Of a stretch of DNA of 64,000 bases, positions 23,497-64,000 are shown piece after piece. The notes under the pieces were generated by a model, which ran no database searches, was not told where the DNA came from, and worked only from the letters and a program-made list of their open reading frames with translations. The translations under genes were made by a program, and so were the position numbers. The number at the start of each line of letters is the position of its first letter. Positions within the stretch are counted from its first letter, which is position 1. This DNA comes from an uncultured Veillonellaceae bacterium. GTDB lineage: Bacteria; Bacillota; Negativicutes; Selenomonadales; Selenomonadaceae. Location of the stretch: the NCBI GenBank assembly GCA_900314825.1, contig OMWS01000011.1, positions 1 through 64,000 on the forward strand. The letters run 5' to 3'.

Positions 23497-23573
23497 AACC
23501 ATGTGAAGAAAAGAACGTAACGCAATCGAGGAGATTGCGCGGAAATCATACGACATGGCAGGAGGACGTCATC

Positions 23574-24824
23574 ATGGAAAAAGCAGCAGAAATCGTCATC
23601 GTTGGTGCTGGCATCGGCGGCGTGCGCGCCGCGCAGGAATTCGCAGGGAAGCCCGGCGTGCATGTCACGCTGATCGACCGCAACAACTACCAGCTGTTCC
23701 CGCCGCTCCTCTACCAGGTCTCGACGGCGACGCTCGCGACGGGCGAGATCGCGTTCCCCGTGCGCGAATTCTTCCGCGACTGCGACAACGTCGACTTTTG
23801 TCTCGGCGACGTCACGGGGTTTGACACGAAGGGCAAGGCCGTCCTGACGAAAGACCGTTGCATCCCGTATGACGCGCTCATCATCGCGACGGGCTCGACG
23901 ACGAACTTCTTCGGCAATGAAAATGTCGCGAAGCACGCGTTCCCGATGAAGACGATGCAGGAAGCGCTCGACATCCGCAACCAGCTCATCCGCTGCCTCG
24001 AGCTCGCCGATCAGGAAAGCGACCCCGTACGCCGCAAAGAACTCTTGACGTTCGTCTGCGTCGGCGGCGGCCCGACGGGCGTCGAGGAGGCCGGGGCCAT
24101 CTCGGAGCTCATCTACAAATCCATGCGTCGTGATTACCATCACCTCGATTTCTCCGAAGTCGACATCAAGATCCTCGAAGGCTCGCCGCGCCTGCTCGCG
24201 ATGATGCCGGAAAAACTCAGCGAGGACACGGCAAACCTGCTGCGCAAGAAAAAAGTCGACGTGCGCCTGCAGACGATCGTCACGGACTATGATGGCCACA
24301 CGCTGACGCTGAAGAGCGGCGAAAAGATCCAGGCGGCGACGGTCATCTGGGCGGCTGGCGTCAAGGCACAACCCGTCGTCGCGGCACTCGATGCAGACTA
24401 CGACCGCGGCGGCCGCATCATCGTGAACAAAGACCTCTCGGTCAAGGGTCTGCCGCATGTCTACGCGATCGGTGACAGCGCAAGCTTCGTGCCGGAGCCA
24501 GGTGCGCGCCCGCTCGCGACCGTTGCACCAGTTGCAATGAAACAGGGCATTCGTTGCGCGCAGAACATCCTCGCAAAGCTCGAGGGTTGCGAACCCGAGA
24601 CGTTCGTCTACAAAGACATGGGCGCCATGGCGACGATCGGCCGCAGCTCGGCCGTGCTCGCGACGGGCAAGCTCCAGATGAAGGGCTTCCTCGCTTGGTC
24701 GGCTTGGCTCTGGGTGCATCTCATCCGCCTCGCCGGCACGTACGCGAACGTCTCCGTCGCGCTCAAATGGGTGTTGAATTATTTCAACAACGCCCGCCTC
24801 GGCCGCATCATCGTCGAACGGTAA
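23574..24824 (+). CDS. ndh: Type II NADH:quinone dehydrogenase (NDH-2), copy 1
   Basis: Peripheral membrane flavoprotein (416 aa) passing electrons from NADH to quinone without proton pumping. FAD-binding GAGIGG near residue 11, NADH-binding VGGGPTGVE in the middle, and the second FAD motif YAIGDSASF all appear in order. The quinone-site region PLLYQVSTATLATGEIAFPVR is typical of NDH-2. A hydrophobic C-terminal stretch (GFLAWSAWLWVHLIRLAG) suits membrane attachment. AGGAGG supports the ATG at 23574 over the in-frame ATG at 23535. It could supply electrons to the nearby quinol-oxidising nitrate reductase. A paralogue starts at 63038. Confidence 0.93.
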   Translation: MEKAAEIVIVGAGIGGVRAAQEFAGKPGVHVTLIDRNNYQLFPPLLYQVSTATLATGEIAFPVREFFRDCDNVDFCLGDVTGFDTKGKAVLTKDRCIPYDALIIATGSTTNFFGNENVAKHAFPMKTMQEALDIRNQLIRCLELADQESDPVRRKELLTFVCVGGGPTGVEEAGAISELIYKSMRRDYHHLDFSEVDIKILEGSPRLLAMMPEKLSEDTANLLRKKKVDVRLQTIVTDYDGHTLTLKSGEKIQAATVIWAAGVKAQPVVAALDADYDRGGRIIVNKDLSVKGLPHVYAIGDSASFVPEPGARPLATVAPVAMKQGIRCAQNILAKLEGCEPETFVYKDMGAMATIGRSSAVLATGKLQMKGFLAWSAWLWVHLIRLAGTYANVSVALKWVLNYFNNARLGRIIVER

Positions 24825-58545: not shown

Positions 58546-59586
58546 TTACTTCTTCTCATAAATTTGATCGAACGTCCCGCCGTCGGCGAAGTGCTCTTTC
58601 TGCGCTTTCTGCCAGCCGCCGAACGCTTCGTCAATCGTCACGAGCGTCAGGGAAGGGAACGTGTCTTTGTACTTCGCAGCGATTTCTTCGTCGCGCGGGC
58701 GGTAGAAGTTCTTCGCGGCGATTTCCTGGCCTTCTTTGGAGTACAGGTAATTGATGTACGCCTCGGCGACTTTGCGCGTGCCTTTCTGGTCGACGACTTC
58801 GTCAACGACGGCGACGGACGGCTCGGCGAGGATGCTGAGCGATGGCACGACGATCTCGTACTTGTCCGGCTCTTCCTGCACGGAGAGCAGCGCCTCGTTC
58901 TCCCACGCGATCAACACGTCGCCCTGGCCGCGCTGGACGAACGAGGTCGTCGCGCCGCGCGCACCGGAGTCGAGAGCGACGACGTTTTGGAACAGCTTTT
59001 TGATGAAGCCTTTGACCTGTTCCGTGTCACCGTTGAACATCTTCTCTGCATAGGCCCACGCGCCAAGATAGTTCCAGCGCGCGCCGCCGGACGTCTTCGG
59101 GTTCGGCGTCACGACCTCGACGCCATCGCGGACGAGGTCATCCCAATCGTGGATGTTCTTCGGATTGCCCTTGCGCACGAGGAAGACAATCGTCGACGTG
59201 TAAGGCGCGGAGTTGTTCGGGAATTTTTTGATCCAGTCCTTGTCGATGAGCCCCGTCGCTGCGATTTCGTCCACGTCATACGCGAGCGCGAGCGTCACGA
59301 CATCGGCTTCGAGCCCTTCGCGCACGGAGCGCGCCTGCTTGCCCGAGCCGCCATGCGACTGCGTGAAGTTCACATGCTCGCCGGTCTCGGCTTCCCATTT
59401 CTTCGAAAAGCTCTCGTTGAACGCCTGGTAGAGTTCGCGCGTTGGATCGTACGAGACGTTGAGGAACGTCTGCCCGTCCGCGCTATCGGAAGAAGCCGCT
59501 TGCTGATCCCCGCCGCAGCCGGCCAGCACCCCCGTCATGAGGAAAAGACCTGTTGCCGCTGCTGCCAGCCATTTTTTCGCTTTCAT
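58546..59586 (-). CDS. sbp: Sulfate-binding lipoprotein of the ABC importer
   Basis: Periplasmic-side sulfate receptor (346 aa). The signal sequence ends in a lipobox (LMTGVLAGC), so Cys near residue 24 should be lipidated and anchor it to a membrane. The mature domain has the Sbp/CysP pattern: [53 protein letters not shown], and [25 protein letters not shown] at 9 nt supports the ATG at 59586 rather than 59592. A 35-bp hairpin lies in its leader (59613..59647). Confidence 0.93.
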
Positions 59587-59612
59587 GTTCATTCACTCCT
59601 TAAGCAGAGAAC

Positions 59613-59647
59613 CAAATCTGGAGGAGCGTTAGCGACGCTCAGATTTG
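59613..59647 (-). promoter_or_regulatory. Leader stem-loop upstream of sbp
   Basis: CAAATCTG pairs with CAGATTTG and the inner GAGCGT pairs with ACGCTC, with a 3-nt bulge and 5-nt loop, 27 nt before the sbp start. There is no U-run after it on the sbp strand, so it is not a standard terminator. It could be an mRNA stabiliser or protein-binding site. Confidence 0.4.
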
Positions 59648-59743
59648 TGTGAATCGCTTACGCAAAATCGCAAAGCAATTTTACGTTCAACATTAATTCA
59701 TATATGTTTACTAATTTGATAGGCGTAAAAAGCACACCAAACA

Positions 59744-59898
59744 ACGCCTCCCCCTTTGGGGGAGGTGCCGAGCGAATGCGAGGCGGAGAGGGTATCGCAG
59801 TTACGGAATTCACGATTCTATCGAAAGGATAGGGAATCGAGGTCAGTCGCTACCCTCTCCGACCCCTTCGGGGCCACCTCCCCCAGAGGGGGAGGCGT
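59744..59898. repeat. Modular palindromic intergenic repeat, type A, between tusA and sbp
   Basis: Outer arms ACGCCTCCCCCTTTGGGGG / CCCCCAGAGGGGGAGGCGT. Left inner hairpin GCCGAGCGAATGCGAGGC, right inner hairpin GACCCCTTCGGGGCC. Centre ACGATTCTATCGAAAGGATAGGGAATCG between GGAGAGGGTA and TACCCTCTCC. Confidence 0.82.
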
Positions 59899-59906
59899 AA
59901 TTCGCT

Positions 59907-60152
59907 TCACTCCAGTCCACCTTTTTCCACGACGAGGTTCCACGTGCCGTCATCGTTCTTGTCAACGGACAGCACCTTGTGTCCTTCGTCTTTGAGACTG
60001 CGCGGCACGTTCTGGATCGGCTCTCCATCGTTCAGATGTACGCCGAGCGTTTGGCCATCCTCGAGGTCTTCGAGGGCGACTTTGACTTTGACGAAGGTAA
60101 TCGGGCAGACGACATCGGTGATGTCGATGGTTTCGTTGACATTTGCACTCAT
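59907..60152 (-). CDS. tusA: TusA-like sulfur carrier protein
   Basis: Small protein (81 aa) of the TusA/SirA fold with the conserved Cys16-Pro17 motif (DVVCPITFVKVKVALEDL). In this family the Cys carries a persulfide for sulfur transfer. Its ATG overlaps the sulfite reductase stop (ATGA) and has GGAGG 7 nt upstream, so the two are translated together. The pairing suggests it handles sulfide or persulfide made by the reductase, possibly handing it to the HcyS thiocarboxylate system. That routing is inference. Confidence 0.88.
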   Translation of the reverse strand: MSANVNETIDITDVVCPITFVKVKVALEDLEDGQTLGVHLNDGEPIQNVPRSLKDEGHKVLSVDKNDDGTWNLVVEKGGLE

Positions 60153-61009
60153 AACACGGCCTCCACAACTTTCTGGAATTTGTCCCAACCGACGCGGTCG
60201 AGGCAATTGGCAAAGCGCTCGCTCGGCTTTGCGTGCTCCTCGAAAAATTTCAGCGTCACATCGACGATTTCATAGAGCTTTTCTTCTTCAAAGACGATCG
60301 GCAGGAAATGGCGGCCGATGGCGATGCGGTTGCCGTAGAGGCCGCCGAACGAGATGACGAAGCCGTGATCGCCTGTCCAGGCGTCCGTCGGGCAGCTCTT
60401 GATGCATTTGCCGCAGTAGACGCATTTCGATTTGTCAAACGCGACGGTCTTCGCATCCTTGTCGACCGTGATGGCTTTCTCGGGACAGACCGCGCCGCAG
60501 ACGCCGCAGTAGATACAAGCGTCCGCTGTCCATTTCGGCAGCACGCCGCCCTTGATGCCCATGTCGTTTTCTTCGGCTTTCAGGCAGTTGTTGTGGCAGC
60601 CCGTGAATCCGAATTTGAATTTGTGCGGGAGTTCCTTGCCACCATAGCGTTTGTCGAACTCGTTCGCGAGCTTCACCGTGTCGATGAGGCCGGACGGGCA
60701 CGTCGCCGCGCCTTGGCACGCCGTGATCGTGCGGACGCGCGGCCCGCAGACGCCGACATCGACACCGCCTTGCTTCAGCGCGGCCTTGACCTCGTCGATG
60801 TCCTGCAACTTGATGTACGGGATCTCGATGCCCTGACGGCTCGTCAGATGGACATAGCCTTTGCCGTATTTCTCTGCGACCTGCTGCACCGTGCCGAGCT
60901 GGGCCGCCGTGAAATGGCCGCCGACGGACTTCAAGCGCATCGCGAAACAGTCCTTCTGTTTCTGCCGCATGAAGCCGCCCTTCTTGAGTTCCTTATAATC
61001 GACTGCCAT
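60149..61009 (-). CDS. Small siroheme sulfite reductase with fused two-cluster ferredoxin domain
   Basis: Reductase of 286 residues, much smaller than CysI. The nitrite/sulfite reductase fold with siroheme-4Fe4S ligands appears as TACQGAATCPSG (C-x5-C) and GFTGCHNNCLKAEENDMG (C-x3-C). Inserted after this are two ferredoxin clusters, CIYCGVCGAVCPEKAI and CVYCGKCIKSCPTDAW. This layout is known from clostridial-type and related anaerobic sulfite reductases. AGGAGG precedes the ATG. Together with the importer, CysDN and AprBA it completes sulfate to sulfide. Nitrite reduction is a less likely alternative. Confidence 0.88.
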   Translation of the reverse strand: MAVDYKELKKGGFMRQKQKDCFAMRLKSVGGHFTAAQLGTVQQVAEKYGKGYVHLTSRQGIEIPYIKLQDIDEVKAALKQGGVDVGVCGPRVRTITACQGAATCPSGLIDTVKLANEFDKRYGGKELPHKFKFGFTGCHNNCLKAEENDMGIKGGVLPKWTADACIYCGVCGAVCPEKAITVDKDAKTVAFDKSKCVYCGKCIKSCPTDAWTGDHGFVISFGGLYGNRIAIGRHFLPIVFEEEKLYEIVDVTLKFFEEHAKPSERFANCLDRVGWDKFQKVVEAVL

Positions 61010-61028
61010 GATGCTCTCCTCCTATATT

Positions 61029-61145
61029 CTGCAGCCTTCCCCTCAGGGGAAGGGGGACCGCGTTAGCGGTGGAAAGGTAAGCAGCCTCTTAGCGCTTCAG
61101 CGCTTAGAGGTCGCTTATGCCGACGAAGTCGGCTGTCCCCTGTAT
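61029..61145. repeat. Short variant of the palindromic repeat between hcyD and the sulfite reductase gene
   Basis: Left arm TGCAGCCTTCCCCTCAGGGGAAGG, ACCGCGTTAGCGGT, GGAAAGGTA. It then carries a variant of the nested module (AGCCTCTTAGCGCTTCAGCGCTTAGAGGTCGCTTAT) and GCCGACGAAGTCGGC. The type B interior and right arm are missing. Confidence 0.68.
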
Positions 61146-61196
61146 GTCTGAAGATAACGCAGACCTGATGTTGCGCGGGTGCGCGCACGTCCTCAT

Positions 61197-61610
61197 TTAA
61201 TGAATGCGCAGATCTTCTTTTGTCACCGTCTTGTCTTTCGCGACATGAAAACTATTCAGTACCGGCTCGCCGCCCGCGAGCGAGAGGATGAAATAACTCG
61301 CTGTGCTGTCGAAGGCCAGGCGCTTGTCTTCTTCGCTTGGCCGCGAGGGCGTCGCCGGGTGGCTGTGCCAGTTGCCCAAGAGCTGCCAGCCTTTCGCGCG
61401 CAGTTCTTTGACGGCCGCGAATTGCTCCTGCGGGTCGAGCGAAAAGTGTTCGGTGCTGTGGTCGGTATTCGTGAGGAAAAACACGCGCTCAATGTGTTTT
61501 TCCTCGCCGCCCACAGTGCCGCCCAAGAGGCCGCAGTCTTCGATGGGCGCGACTTCGCGGGCATGACGGACAATTTCCAAATAATCTTCGAGCTTCAGAT
61601 GTACAATCAT
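61197..61610 (-). CDS. hcyD: JAMM/MPN+ metalloprotease of a thiocarboxylate carrier system (HcyD-like)
   Basis: Zinc peptidase of 137 residues. The JAMM motif is complete: Glu24 in APIEDCGLLGG, then HSHPATPSRPSEED, which is exactly H-x-H-x10-D with the Ser. Family members of this type (Mec, HcyD) trim residues after the Gly-Gly of a ThiS-like carrier. The neighbouring carrier ends in GGGAR and so needs such trimming. AAGGAG is 8 nt before the ATG at 61610; the ATG at 61616 is too close. It is 12 bp behind hcyF. Confidence 0.87.
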   Translation of the reverse strand: MIVHLKLEDYLEIVRHAREVAPIEDCGLLGGTVGGEEKHIERVFFLTNTDHSTEHFSLDPQEQFAAVKELRAKGWQLLGNWHSHPATPSRPSEEDKRLAFDSTASYFILSLAGGEPVLNSFHVAKDKTVTKEDLRIH

Positions 61611-61622
61611 GCGCATCGCTCC

Positions 61623-62435
61623 TTATTTCCGCAGGTCGCAGGCCGGCTGCTCGTAGTCGACGAGCTTCGTGATCGTCGGATGCTCGCCGCAGACGGCGCA
61701 GTGCGGGTTGCGCGGGATTTTGATCTTGCGGAACGTCATCTTCAGCGCGTCAAACGTCAAGAGATATCCATTCAGCAAATCGCCGATGCCCAAGAGATAT
61801 TTCAGCGCTTCTGTCGCTTGCAGCGTGCCGATGACGCCGCCCATGACACCGAGCACGCCGGCCTGGCGGCATGTCGGCACGGCATCTTTTGGCGGCATCG
61901 TGGGGAAGACGCAGCGGTAACACGGCCCCGCACCCGGTACGTACGTCATGAGCTGTCCCTGGAAGCGGATGATGCCGGCATGGACGAAGGGCTTTTTCTC
62001 AAATACGCACGCGTCGTTGATGAGGAACTTCGCGGGGAAGTTGTCCGTACCGTCGATGATGAAGTCGTAATCCTGATCGCGGATGATATCGCGGATGTTC
62101 GCCGAGGTCACGAGCTCGTTATACGTATGTACGGTGACGTCGGGATTCATTGCGGCAATCGTCTCTTGCCCTGATCGTACTTTTGCCTTGCCGACATCCA
62201 ACGTCTGGTGGATAATCTGGCGCTGGAGGTTCGAGAGGTCGACGACATCGAAATCGACGAGGCCAATCGTGCCGACGCCGGCCGCCGCGAGATACATCGC
62301 CGCCGGCGCGCCGAGGCCGCCCGTGCCGATGACGAGCACTTTGCCGTTCAAGAGTTTTTCCTGTCCTTTGCCGCCGACCTGCTTCAAGATGATGTGGCGC
62401 GAATAGCGCTCGAGCTGTTCATTCGAAAGCTTCAT
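61623..62435 (-). CDS. hcyF: ThiF/MoeB/HesA-family carrier-activating adenylyltransferase (HcyF-like)
   Basis: E1-like enzyme (270 aa) that adenylates the C-terminal glycine of a ubiquitin-like sulfur carrier. ATP-binding VIGTGGLGAPAAMYLAAAG near residue 35, Arg/Asn region LSNLQRQIIH, IDGTDNFPAKFLIND, zinc-binding Cys pairs CYRC and CAVC, and a conserved Cys in PTCRQAGVLG that may form a thioester or persulfide. No rhodanese domain is attached. It overlaps the carrier gene by 4 bp and precedes the JAMM protease. MoeB or ThiF function is possible, but the gene set fits HcyF. Confidence 0.88.
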   Translation of the reverse strand: MKLSNEQLERYSRHIILKQVGGKGQEKLLNGKVLVIGTGGLGAPAAMYLAAAGVGTIGLVDFDVVDLSNLQRQIIHQTLDVGKAKVRSGQETIAAMNPDVTVHTYNELVTSANIRDIIRDQDYDFIIDGTDNFPAKFLINDACVFEKKPFVHAGIIRFQGQLMTYVPGAGPCYRCVFPTMPPKDAVPTCRQAGVLGVMGGVIGTLQATEALKYLLGIGDLLNGYLLTFDALKMTFRKIKIPRNPHCAVCGEHPTITKLVDYEQPACDLRK

Positions 62436-62641
62436 CTTGCGCCGCCTCCCATGAAGTAGAGGAATTCGACGACGTCGCCGTCCTTCACGGTCGTTGTCTC
62501 GAAGCCCGAGTGATCGACGAAGGCGCCATTGAGCTGCACGGTCACATATTCCGGCTGCTCGGCCTTCGCGACGACAAGCAATTCTTTCACGGTGATCGGC
62601 TGCTCGATTTCGAGCGGCTCTCCATTGACTGTCAATTTCAT
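62432..62641 (-). CDS. hcyS: ThiS/MoaD-like sulfur carrier with C-terminal extension (HcyS-like)
   Basis: Ubiquitin-fold carrier of 69 residues (MKLTVNGEPLEIEQPITVKE start, as in ThiS). It does not end in a bare Gly-Gly: Gly65-Gly66-Gly67 are followed by Ala-Arg, so a protease must expose the glycine before adenylation and thiocarboxylation. The next genes encode an adenylyltransferase and a JAMM protease, then sulfite reductase. This is the arrangement described for homocysteine formation in Wolinella succinogenes (HcyS/HcyF/HcyD). GGGAGG at 7 nt supports the ATG at 62641 over 62668. Confidence 0.87.
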   Translation of the reverse strand: MKLTVNGEPLEIEQPITVKELLVVAKAEQPEYVTVQLNGAFVDHSGFETTTVKDGDVVEFLYFMGGGAR

Positions 62642-62701
62642 CGGTGTGCCTCCCTGTACTGTATCCATACTGTTTTGATATGTTTTGTAAATGTTGTCGC
62701 T

Positions 62702-62730
62702 ATCTTACAACAGAAGTGTGAAGTTGTCAA
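62702..62730 (-). promoter_or_regulatory. Promoter of the sulfur locus (hcyS)
   Basis: Read leftward: TTGACA (62730..62725), 17 bp, TAAGAT (62707..62702). It is about 54 bp upstream of the hcyS ribosome binding site. A short palindrome GTAT-CC-ATAC lies in the leader (around 62661..62670) and might bind a sulfur regulator. Confidence 0.7.
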
Positions 62731-62886
62731 CCTGAAATTTTTAAAAACATATATGATTGCATGGTTTATTTGTTTCTGCACGATTTTGCACGAGGCTGCT
62801 GTGGTTTGATGTTCGCGATTGTCCTTCTTTTCACGTAGTGTATGCCATATGGGTAGAAAACTCTTGAAGAAACAATTACTTTTCAA

Positions 62887-62964
62887 GAAAGTGGAATTTT
62901 TCACTTGCATTTCCGTCAAGATGTGCTAGTATATGACCCATCGAAAGAAAGTGACAACTTTCAC
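62887..62964 (+). promoter_or_regulatory. Promoter of second ndh with two Rex-like boxes
   Basis: TTGCAT (62905..62910), 16 bp, TAGTAT (62927..62932). Box 1 GTGGAATTTTTCAC (62891..62904) abuts the -35. Box 2 GTGACAACTTTCAC (62951..62964) lies just after the expected transcription start. Each differs by one base from GTGAA-N4-TTCAC, the core of the Rex operator. Both are preceded by GAAA, and their centres are 60 bp apart. Confidence 0.6.
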
Positions 62965-63037
62965 GTGAAGGATTGCACTAACACATTAAGTAAAAAATTA
63001 AAAGAGGAAGCAAGAACAGCCTAGGAGGATGTTACCA

Positions 63038-64000
63038 ATGCCAGAGCAGAAGAAACCCCACGTTGTCATCGTCGGTGCCGGATTCGGCGGCATCAAGCTC
63101 GCTAAGACGCTCGGAAAAGAAGATGTCGAGATCACGCTTGTTGACCGCCACAATTTCCAGCTGTTCGCACCGCTCCTGTATCAGGTGTCGACGGCCGTGC
63201 TGTCGGAAGACGAGATCGCGTATCCGGTGCGTTCGTTCTTCCGCGATTATCCGAACGTGGAGTTCTTCATGGCGAAGGCGCAGGGCGTCGACCAGGCGCG
63301 TCGCGTGCTCTTGACGAACCATGGCGAGATCCCGTACGATTACCTCGTGCTCGCGGCCGGCTCGACGACGAACTTCTTCGGCATGGAGTCCGTCGAGCGC
63401 AACAGCTATGGCATGAAGACGCTGCAGGAAGCACTGCACATCCGCAACCACGTCCTCCATATGTTCGAGCGTGCGAATAAGCGCGAGGACAGCGAAGAGG
63501 AACGCCGCCGCATGCTGACGTTCGTCGTCGTCGGCGGCGGCCCGACGGGCATCGAAGAGGCCGGCGCGCTTTCCGAGCTCGTGGCCGTGCAGAAAAAAGA
63601 GTATCATCACCTCGACTTCAATGAAGTCAGTGTCAAGCTCATCGAGGCGACGCCGCATGTGCTGCCGATGCTGACGCAGGATCTGCAGGACGAGGTCGTC
63701 CGCGTGCTGCGCGGCAAGGGCGTCGATGTCATGCTTGACACGCAGGTCATGGACAACGACGGGAATAATCTGAAGCTCAAGGATGGCCGCGTCATCCCGA
63801 CGAAGACCGTCATCTGGGCGGCCGGCGTCAAGGCTGTGCCGTTCATCGCGAAATGCGGCGCGGAAGTCGACCGCGGCGGCCGCATCATCACGGACGAAAA
63901 CCTCCGCGTGCAGGGCAGCGACCGCGTCTTCGCCATCGGCGACTGCGCACACTTCCAGCTGGAGGGCATGAAGCGTCCGCTCGCGACGATTGCGCCGGTC
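63038..64000 (+). CDS. ndh: Type II NADH dehydrogenase (NDH-2), copy 2, cut by the window edge
   Basis: The first 321 codons of a second NDH-2 flavoprotein. FAD motif GAGFGG near residue 13, quinone-site region PLLYQVSTAVLSEDEIAYPVR, NADH motif VGGGPTGIEEAGALSEL, and second FAD motif FAIGDCAHF are present. The membrane-binding C-terminus lies outside. It is clearly paralogous to the gene at 23574 and should also feed electrons from NADH to quinone. AGGAGG lies 8 nt before the ATG. Two Rex-like boxes flank its promoter, suggesting NADH-responsive control that copy 1 seems to lack. Confidence 0.92.
   Translation, partial: MPEQKKPHVVIVGAGFGGIKLAKTLGKEDVEITLVDRHNFQLFAPLLYQVSTAVLSEDEIAYPVRSFFRDYPNVEFFMAKAQGVDQARRVLLTNHGEIPYDYLVLAAGSTTNFFGMESVERNSYGMKTLQEALHIRNHVLHMFERANKREDSEEERRRMLTFVVVGGGPTGIEEAGALSELVAVQKKEYHHLDFNEVSVKLIEATPHVLPMLTQDLQDEVVRVLRGKGVDVMLDTQVMDNDGNNLKLKDGRVIPTKTVIWAAGVKAVPFIAKCGAEVDRGGRIITDENLRVQGSDRVFAIGDCAHFQLEGMKRPLATIAPV

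Follow-up and report, generated by a model that had tools for sequence, protein, structure and literature searches.

Predicted Rex operators at the promoter of a second ndh gene in a Selenomonadaceae genome

The region upstream of the second ndh gene

The window (the whole 64,000-nucleotide stretch of DNA that was analysed) carries two ndh genes. The second, on the + strand, specifies a type II NADH dehydrogenase (NDH-2) and runs from 63038 to 64000 and beyond the window end (425 amino acids in the genome). It is preceded by a ribosome-binding site, AGGAGG (63023-63028, + strand), and by a probable promoter on the same strand made up of a -35-like TTGCAT (62905-62910), whose CTTGC context is the same in sister species, and a -10-like TAGTAT (62927-62932), which follows a 16-bp spacer and is preceded by TGC. 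Transcription would start near 62939.

Three + strand boxes, each one mismatch from GTGAA-N4-TTCAC and none of them a zero-mismatch site, surround this putative promoter. Box 1 (GTGGAATTTTTCAC, 62891-62904) is the weakest of the array and adjoins TTGCAT without a gap. Box 2 (GTGACAACTTTCAC, 62951-62964) has an exact core GTKANNNNNTTCAC (see below) and is the main predicted Rex operator; box 3 (GTGAAGGATTGCAC, 62965-62978) adjoins it directly, with a 14-bp period. Relative to the predicted start, box 2 would occupy positions +13 to +26 and box 3 positions +27 to +40, approximately. A preliminary description of this DNA had placed two such boxes 60 bp apart (start to start), one touching the -35 element and the other just past the start; boxes 1 and 2 bear this out, and box 3 had been overlooked.

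The window has four matches to the consensus against 1.78 expected, and 10 of 100 shuffles reach four, so that a lone match carries little weight. Three of the four, however, are packed into 88 bp upstream of ndh. When the 350 bp upstream of ndh are subjected to 5,000 dinucleotide shuffles, at least one match is generated 128 times, at least two matches three times, and at least three never.

Farther upstream, a degenerate element (GTCCTTCTTTTCAC, 62821-62834, + strand) may, with low confidence, be the counterpart of TTGTTATTCTTTTCAC, which precedes ndh promoters in relatives (comparison with L067, L232, L189, L257 and L231); such a recurrent upstream element is seen, for example, as GTTATTCTTTTCAC, which lies at -270 in S. 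bovis and at -299 in G125. A weak GTGAAGTTGTCAAC at 62718-62731 overlaps a TTGACA that belongs to the probable promoter of an operon divergent from ndh and is probably a by-product of that -35 element. The divergent operon (58546-62668, minus strand) comprises sulfite reductase C-like, JAMM/Prok-JAB, MoeB/ThiF-like E1 and ThiS-like carrier genes, together with what we take to be sulfate-binding-protein-like and TusA-like genes, and has the appearance of a cluster for sulfur assimilation by way of a sulfur carrier.

The first ndh copy, at 23574, was described as free of such boxes, and it is: upstream of it there is no site with two or fewer mismatches, and the best candidate, GTGAAGAAAAGAAC at 23503-23516, has three mismatches, with one half intact. 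Copies related to this first ndh carry full boxes in S. bovis (L129) and in the genomes G008 (L086) and G139 (L174).

Rex and NDH-2 of the window genome

The Rex reading of the boxes that was put forward in the preliminary description depends on there being a rex gene, and a search of the genome (G000, 3.36 Mb) of this Selenomonas-like bacterium from the rumen finds one, and only one. Its product matches PF06971 with E 2.2e-19, scores above the cut-off for the NCBIfam family 'redox-sensing transcriptional repressor Rex', and is similar to the solved Thermotoga maritima Rex with E 4.9e-51. A winged-helix N-terminus is joined to an NAD-binding Rossmann domain (PF06971 and PF02629), and residues 15-216 align to 5zz5.

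The genome's Rex belongs to the same protein family as the T. maritima Rex that has been solved with NAD+ and DNA (7wb3), for which PMC8836258 names 12 DNA-contact residues. Nine of these are identical in an alignment read by eye (Arg12, Ser33, Glu34, Gln46, Arg48, Lys49, Gly58, Gly61 and Tyr64); the differences are K to T at position 43, S to A at 52 and R to K at 60. The Ala and Tyr that are said to hold NAD+ (PMC8063818) are likewise conserved in the alignment with T. maritima Rex. The ndh product resembles solved NDH-2 structures (9mqy, E 4.6e-73; 5na1, E 1.4e-51; 9pxk, YjlD, E 9.6e-49), S. aureus NDH-2 and B. subtilis YjlD among them, and on this similarity the enzyme is classed as NDH-2-like.

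Conservation of the box and its association with rex

The upstream regions of 57 ndh loci from named genomes, collected in one scan (Selenomonas, Mitsuokella, Anaerovibrio, Pectinatus, Megamonas and kin), share a recurrent element, AAGTTAATTTTTTCACTT and variants of it, with the core GTKANNNNNTTCAC. The box in relatives has the form AAGTKAnnnnnTTCACTT, usually lies just downstream of the -10 element and is often present in multiple copies. With a core that was fixed only after these 57 loci had been seen, rex-containing genomes have the exact core at 38 of 42 loci and the core with at most one mismatch at 41 of 42. Scored instead with the consensus of the preliminary description (one mismatch), the box is found at 31 of 42 loci in rex-containing genomes against 1 of 15 in rex-less ones. 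Among genomes without a good rex match, the box is present at one of 15 loci, L023 of a metagenome-assembled genome (MAG; G042), where rex is perhaps missing through incomplete assembly.

The sequence of box 2 is identical in L012-L014. Of seven sequences compared (the window, L012-L015, L040 and L067; hand count), those of the window and L015 alone have a box 1 that comes within one mismatch of GTKANNNNNTTCAC; in L012-L014, L040 and L067 it is degenerate (mismatches counted by hand).

A larger set (which overlaps the first, so that the two are not independent) consists of 107 genomes of the family with a completeness of 90% or more; rex is present at E <1e-15 in 80 of them, and 27 have no match or a weak one. 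A full-length Rex query finds no match in the 18 of these 27 rex-less genomes that were searched. Upstream regions were read for 108 ndh copies from 92 genomes, 67 with rex and 25 without. (Outside the 92 are G111, G114, G116, G131, G132, G135 and G138, which give no ndh match, and G068, G069, G070, G075, G077, G080, G097 and G109, whose ndh was not retrieved.) Direct reading was used in preference to a per-genome count of raw pattern matches, which is noisier.

The exact core is present at ndh in 59 of the 67 genomes with rex and in none of the 25 without (Fisher 6e-16); if one mismatch is allowed, the count becomes 63 of 67 against 0 of 25. The exceptions at this threshold, G104, G107, G108 and G110, belong to one genus and have a diverged Rex (50-59% identity). 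At the level of individual genes, the box is missing at the ndh copy read in one rex-containing genome (L031, G047), and some ndh paralogues in rex-containing genomes are without it.

Placed on the ndh tree, the comparison reduces to nine independent pairs differing in rex, of which on average 6.7 are concordant with one mismatch allowed and 4.9 with the exact core; none is discordant. The median p is 0.0156 and 0.0625, respectively, a modest significance because there are only nine pairs. Rex loss and box loss coincide on separate branches, and in two instances what may be the remains of an operator can be seen. G073 lacks rex, whereas its 13 congeners have it, and carries GTGATGTTTCCGC at the position occupied by GTGATTTTTTTCAC in the seven congeners read (GTGATTTGTTTCAC in G076). 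G095, also without rex, has ATTTCAGCTTTTCAC at the position of GTTAAAACTTTCAC in its sister G096. Both look like former operators that degenerated once rex had gone, if the direction of change is read correctly.

Rex control of ndh and the alternatives

Control of the second ndh by Rex, as proposed in the preliminary description, is well supported by this comparative evidence, because a true rex gene is present and the box is conserved at ndh promoters of the family, tracks rex (all 25 rex-less genomes read in the family set lack it) and has left two apparent decayed operators. The boxes are very probably Rex operators. Rex represses at low NADH and comes off DNA when NADH rises, according to PMC5355995 and PMC8063818. 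At a low NADH/NAD+ ratio, Rex dimers bound to boxes 2 and 3, a short way past the start, would block ndh by occluding early transcription; box 1, at the -35 element, might also be occupied, though weakly. A rise in NADH would release Rex and allow NDH-2 to be made; the enzyme would then re-oxidise NADH, completing a feedback loop.

Repression by looping of the DNA from box 1 to box 2 (60 bp), also suggested in the preliminary description, is a variant of the Rex reading and not an alternative to it. The promoter is indeed flanked by two sites, and some relatives keep a distant upstream element with which a loop is physically easier (for example, -224/-71 in G136 and -234/-64 in G139). However, 60 bp is short and corresponds to 5.7 turns of 10.5 bp, not to an integral number; L012-L014 and S. 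bovis do not conserve box 1, and many relatives have downstream sites only. Looping is not supported because of this short distance, the poor conservation of box 1 in sister species and the placement of boxes 2 and 3 where they could block the start. It is improbable, and direct blocking of the promoter would fit better.

The Rex and CRP cores overlap, and box 2 contains an exact GTGA-N6-TCAC, so that a CRP/FNR-family regulator might bind the boxes instead of Rex; the window genome has nine HTH_Crp_2 matches. The box does not go with the distribution of these proteins: 106 of the 107 genomes have HTH_Crp_2, among them 26 of the 27 that lack rex. G073 has seven matches (best E 2.0e-18) yet neither rex nor the ndh box, whereas G093, G096, G098, G099, G101, G102 and G105 carry the box with weak Crp matches only (E 7e-7 to 8e-5). 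The conserved TT/AA beside the GTGA halves also suits Rex better, and a CRP/FNR protein is an unlikely occupant of the boxes.

Co-occurrence cannot tell Rex from another regulator with an identical history. The bases flanking the core also leave room for such a protein, as they are unlike the published Rex consensus: the outer bases in Selenomonas are mostly AAGT...CACTT or CACGA, not TTGT...ACAA, which counts against Rex, and those of the ndh sites are AA/TT or AA/GT. The full 18-bp TTGTGAANNNNTTCACAA, at two or fewer mismatches, occurs at 10 places in the window genome, mostly inside genes (ORF tables), and the ndh promoter is not among them. S. avermitilis Rex, on the other hand, has bound sites with three mismatches to the full consensus (PMC5355995). 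A co-lost regulator would have had to disappear jointly with rex on several separate branches, and to share with Rex both its core and a known target, ndh; this is very unlikely.

It is scarcely credible that the boxes arose by chance or work as RNA hairpins of the leader. Boxes 2 and 3 can pair in the transcript (-13.9 kcal/mol), but the fold is not significant against shuffles (z-score -1.26, 21 of 200 equally good), and the leader hairpin is rejected on that ground. The Pectinatus site lies inside the promoter and not in the leader, and chance is excluded by the shuffles and by conservation.

Operator arrays and the extent of the regulon

Among 61 ndh promoters with the exact core in rex-containing genomes, 40 have at least two sites (at most one mismatch), against 0.8 expected from shuffles, and 13 have at least three. 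Start-to-start distances form two clusters, one at 14 bp with 9 cases and one at 22-24 bp with 15. In the genus of the window the units abut at 14 bp, with two units in the window and three in L012-L014 and L015.

A wider Rex regulon in the window genome finds no favour in pattern searches, and this candidate was rejected. Besides the mostly intragenic matches to the full consensus, the symmetric GTKAANNNNTTMAC occurs at one place, against four for its reversed control, and AAGTKANNNNNTTCAC at six, of which only that at ndh is in promoter position. Across the 80 rex-containing genomes of the family, AAGTKANNNNWTTCAC has 120 matches: 53 at most 450 bp upstream of ndh, 15 in genus g5 and 52 others, which do not exceed the 72 matches of the reversed control. 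A narrow, ndh-centred regulon is therefore possible; weaker sites would escape the pattern. Surroundings were read for 40 of the matching regions, and they yield, as leads to further targets, genes resembling pyruvate carboxylase subunit B (three, in g5), etfB (one) and mqnE (one).

In g5, AAGTTATAAAATTCAC (AAGTTATAAGATTCAC in two) is found once in each of 14 genomes. In the three contexts read (L134, L138 and L139, from G067, G073 and G076) it lies upstream of a gene resembling pyruvate carboxylase subunit B or oxaloacetate decarboxylase alpha. G073, which has no rex, keeps an exact AAGTTATAAAATTCAC upstream of its pyruvate-carboxylase-like gene; that site is therefore not explained by Rex alone.

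Autoregulation of rex was rejected as a general feature (an exact box is found upstream at one of 41 rex loci). One MAG has a second Rex fragment, 52% identical, with GTTAAAATTTTCAC 56 bp upstream (L117, G045:C182), on what may be a contaminant contig. In the window genome, TTGTAACGAGATTCACAA is located between two genes (L006, site at 1501), presumably TetR-like and radical SAM-like, and could be a TetR or a Rex site.

We offer one further suggestion, tentatively: Rex of the Selenomonadaceae may have been narrowed to about one strong target, NDH-2, read through operator arrays (14-bp abutting units in this genus, 22-24 bp in others) that might provide a steep, cooperative NADH switch. The abutting 14-bp arrays pose a testable question, namely the number of Rex dimers they can hold and the cooperativity, if any, between them.

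Comparison with known Rex systems

Negativicutes are diderm anaerobes of rumen, mouth and gut, and it is to these bacteria that the NADH-Rex-ndh feedback loop would be extended if the proposed control is correct. The family also presents a natural experiment on the dissolution of a regulon, given the repeated losses of rex and the apparent decay of operators in place. Among the papers listed in a literature search, none links Selenomonas or Negativicutes with Rex; a comparative study of Rex from 2012 (10.1128/JB.06412-11) lies outside that search, so an earlier prediction is possible.

The circuit itself is known from B. subtilis, where Rex represses yjlC-ndh (PMC5355995); here it would operate in a new lineage, with an unusual operator array. 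The proposed loop shares with the Rex/YdiH-yjlC-ndh loop a Rex repressor, an NDH-2 target and half sites of the GTGAA type. It differs in its host, a member of the Negativicutes (Selenomonadaceae), in the outer bases AAGT/CACTT, in the arrangement seen in the window's genus, where two or three 14-bp units abut one another downstream of the -10 element, and, in the window's lineage, in a rex gene that has no Rex box of its own.

The operator consensus of S. aureus and Streptomyces Rex, TTGTGAA-W4-TTCACAA (PMC2883068), has the same core, GTGAAnnnnTTCAC, and the same spacing as the sites described here. The left half is usually GTKA followed by any base and, in Selenomonas, the flanks are A and not T, unlike the consensus; the Pectinatus ndh sites, TTGTTATTTTATTCACAA, match its outer bases as well.
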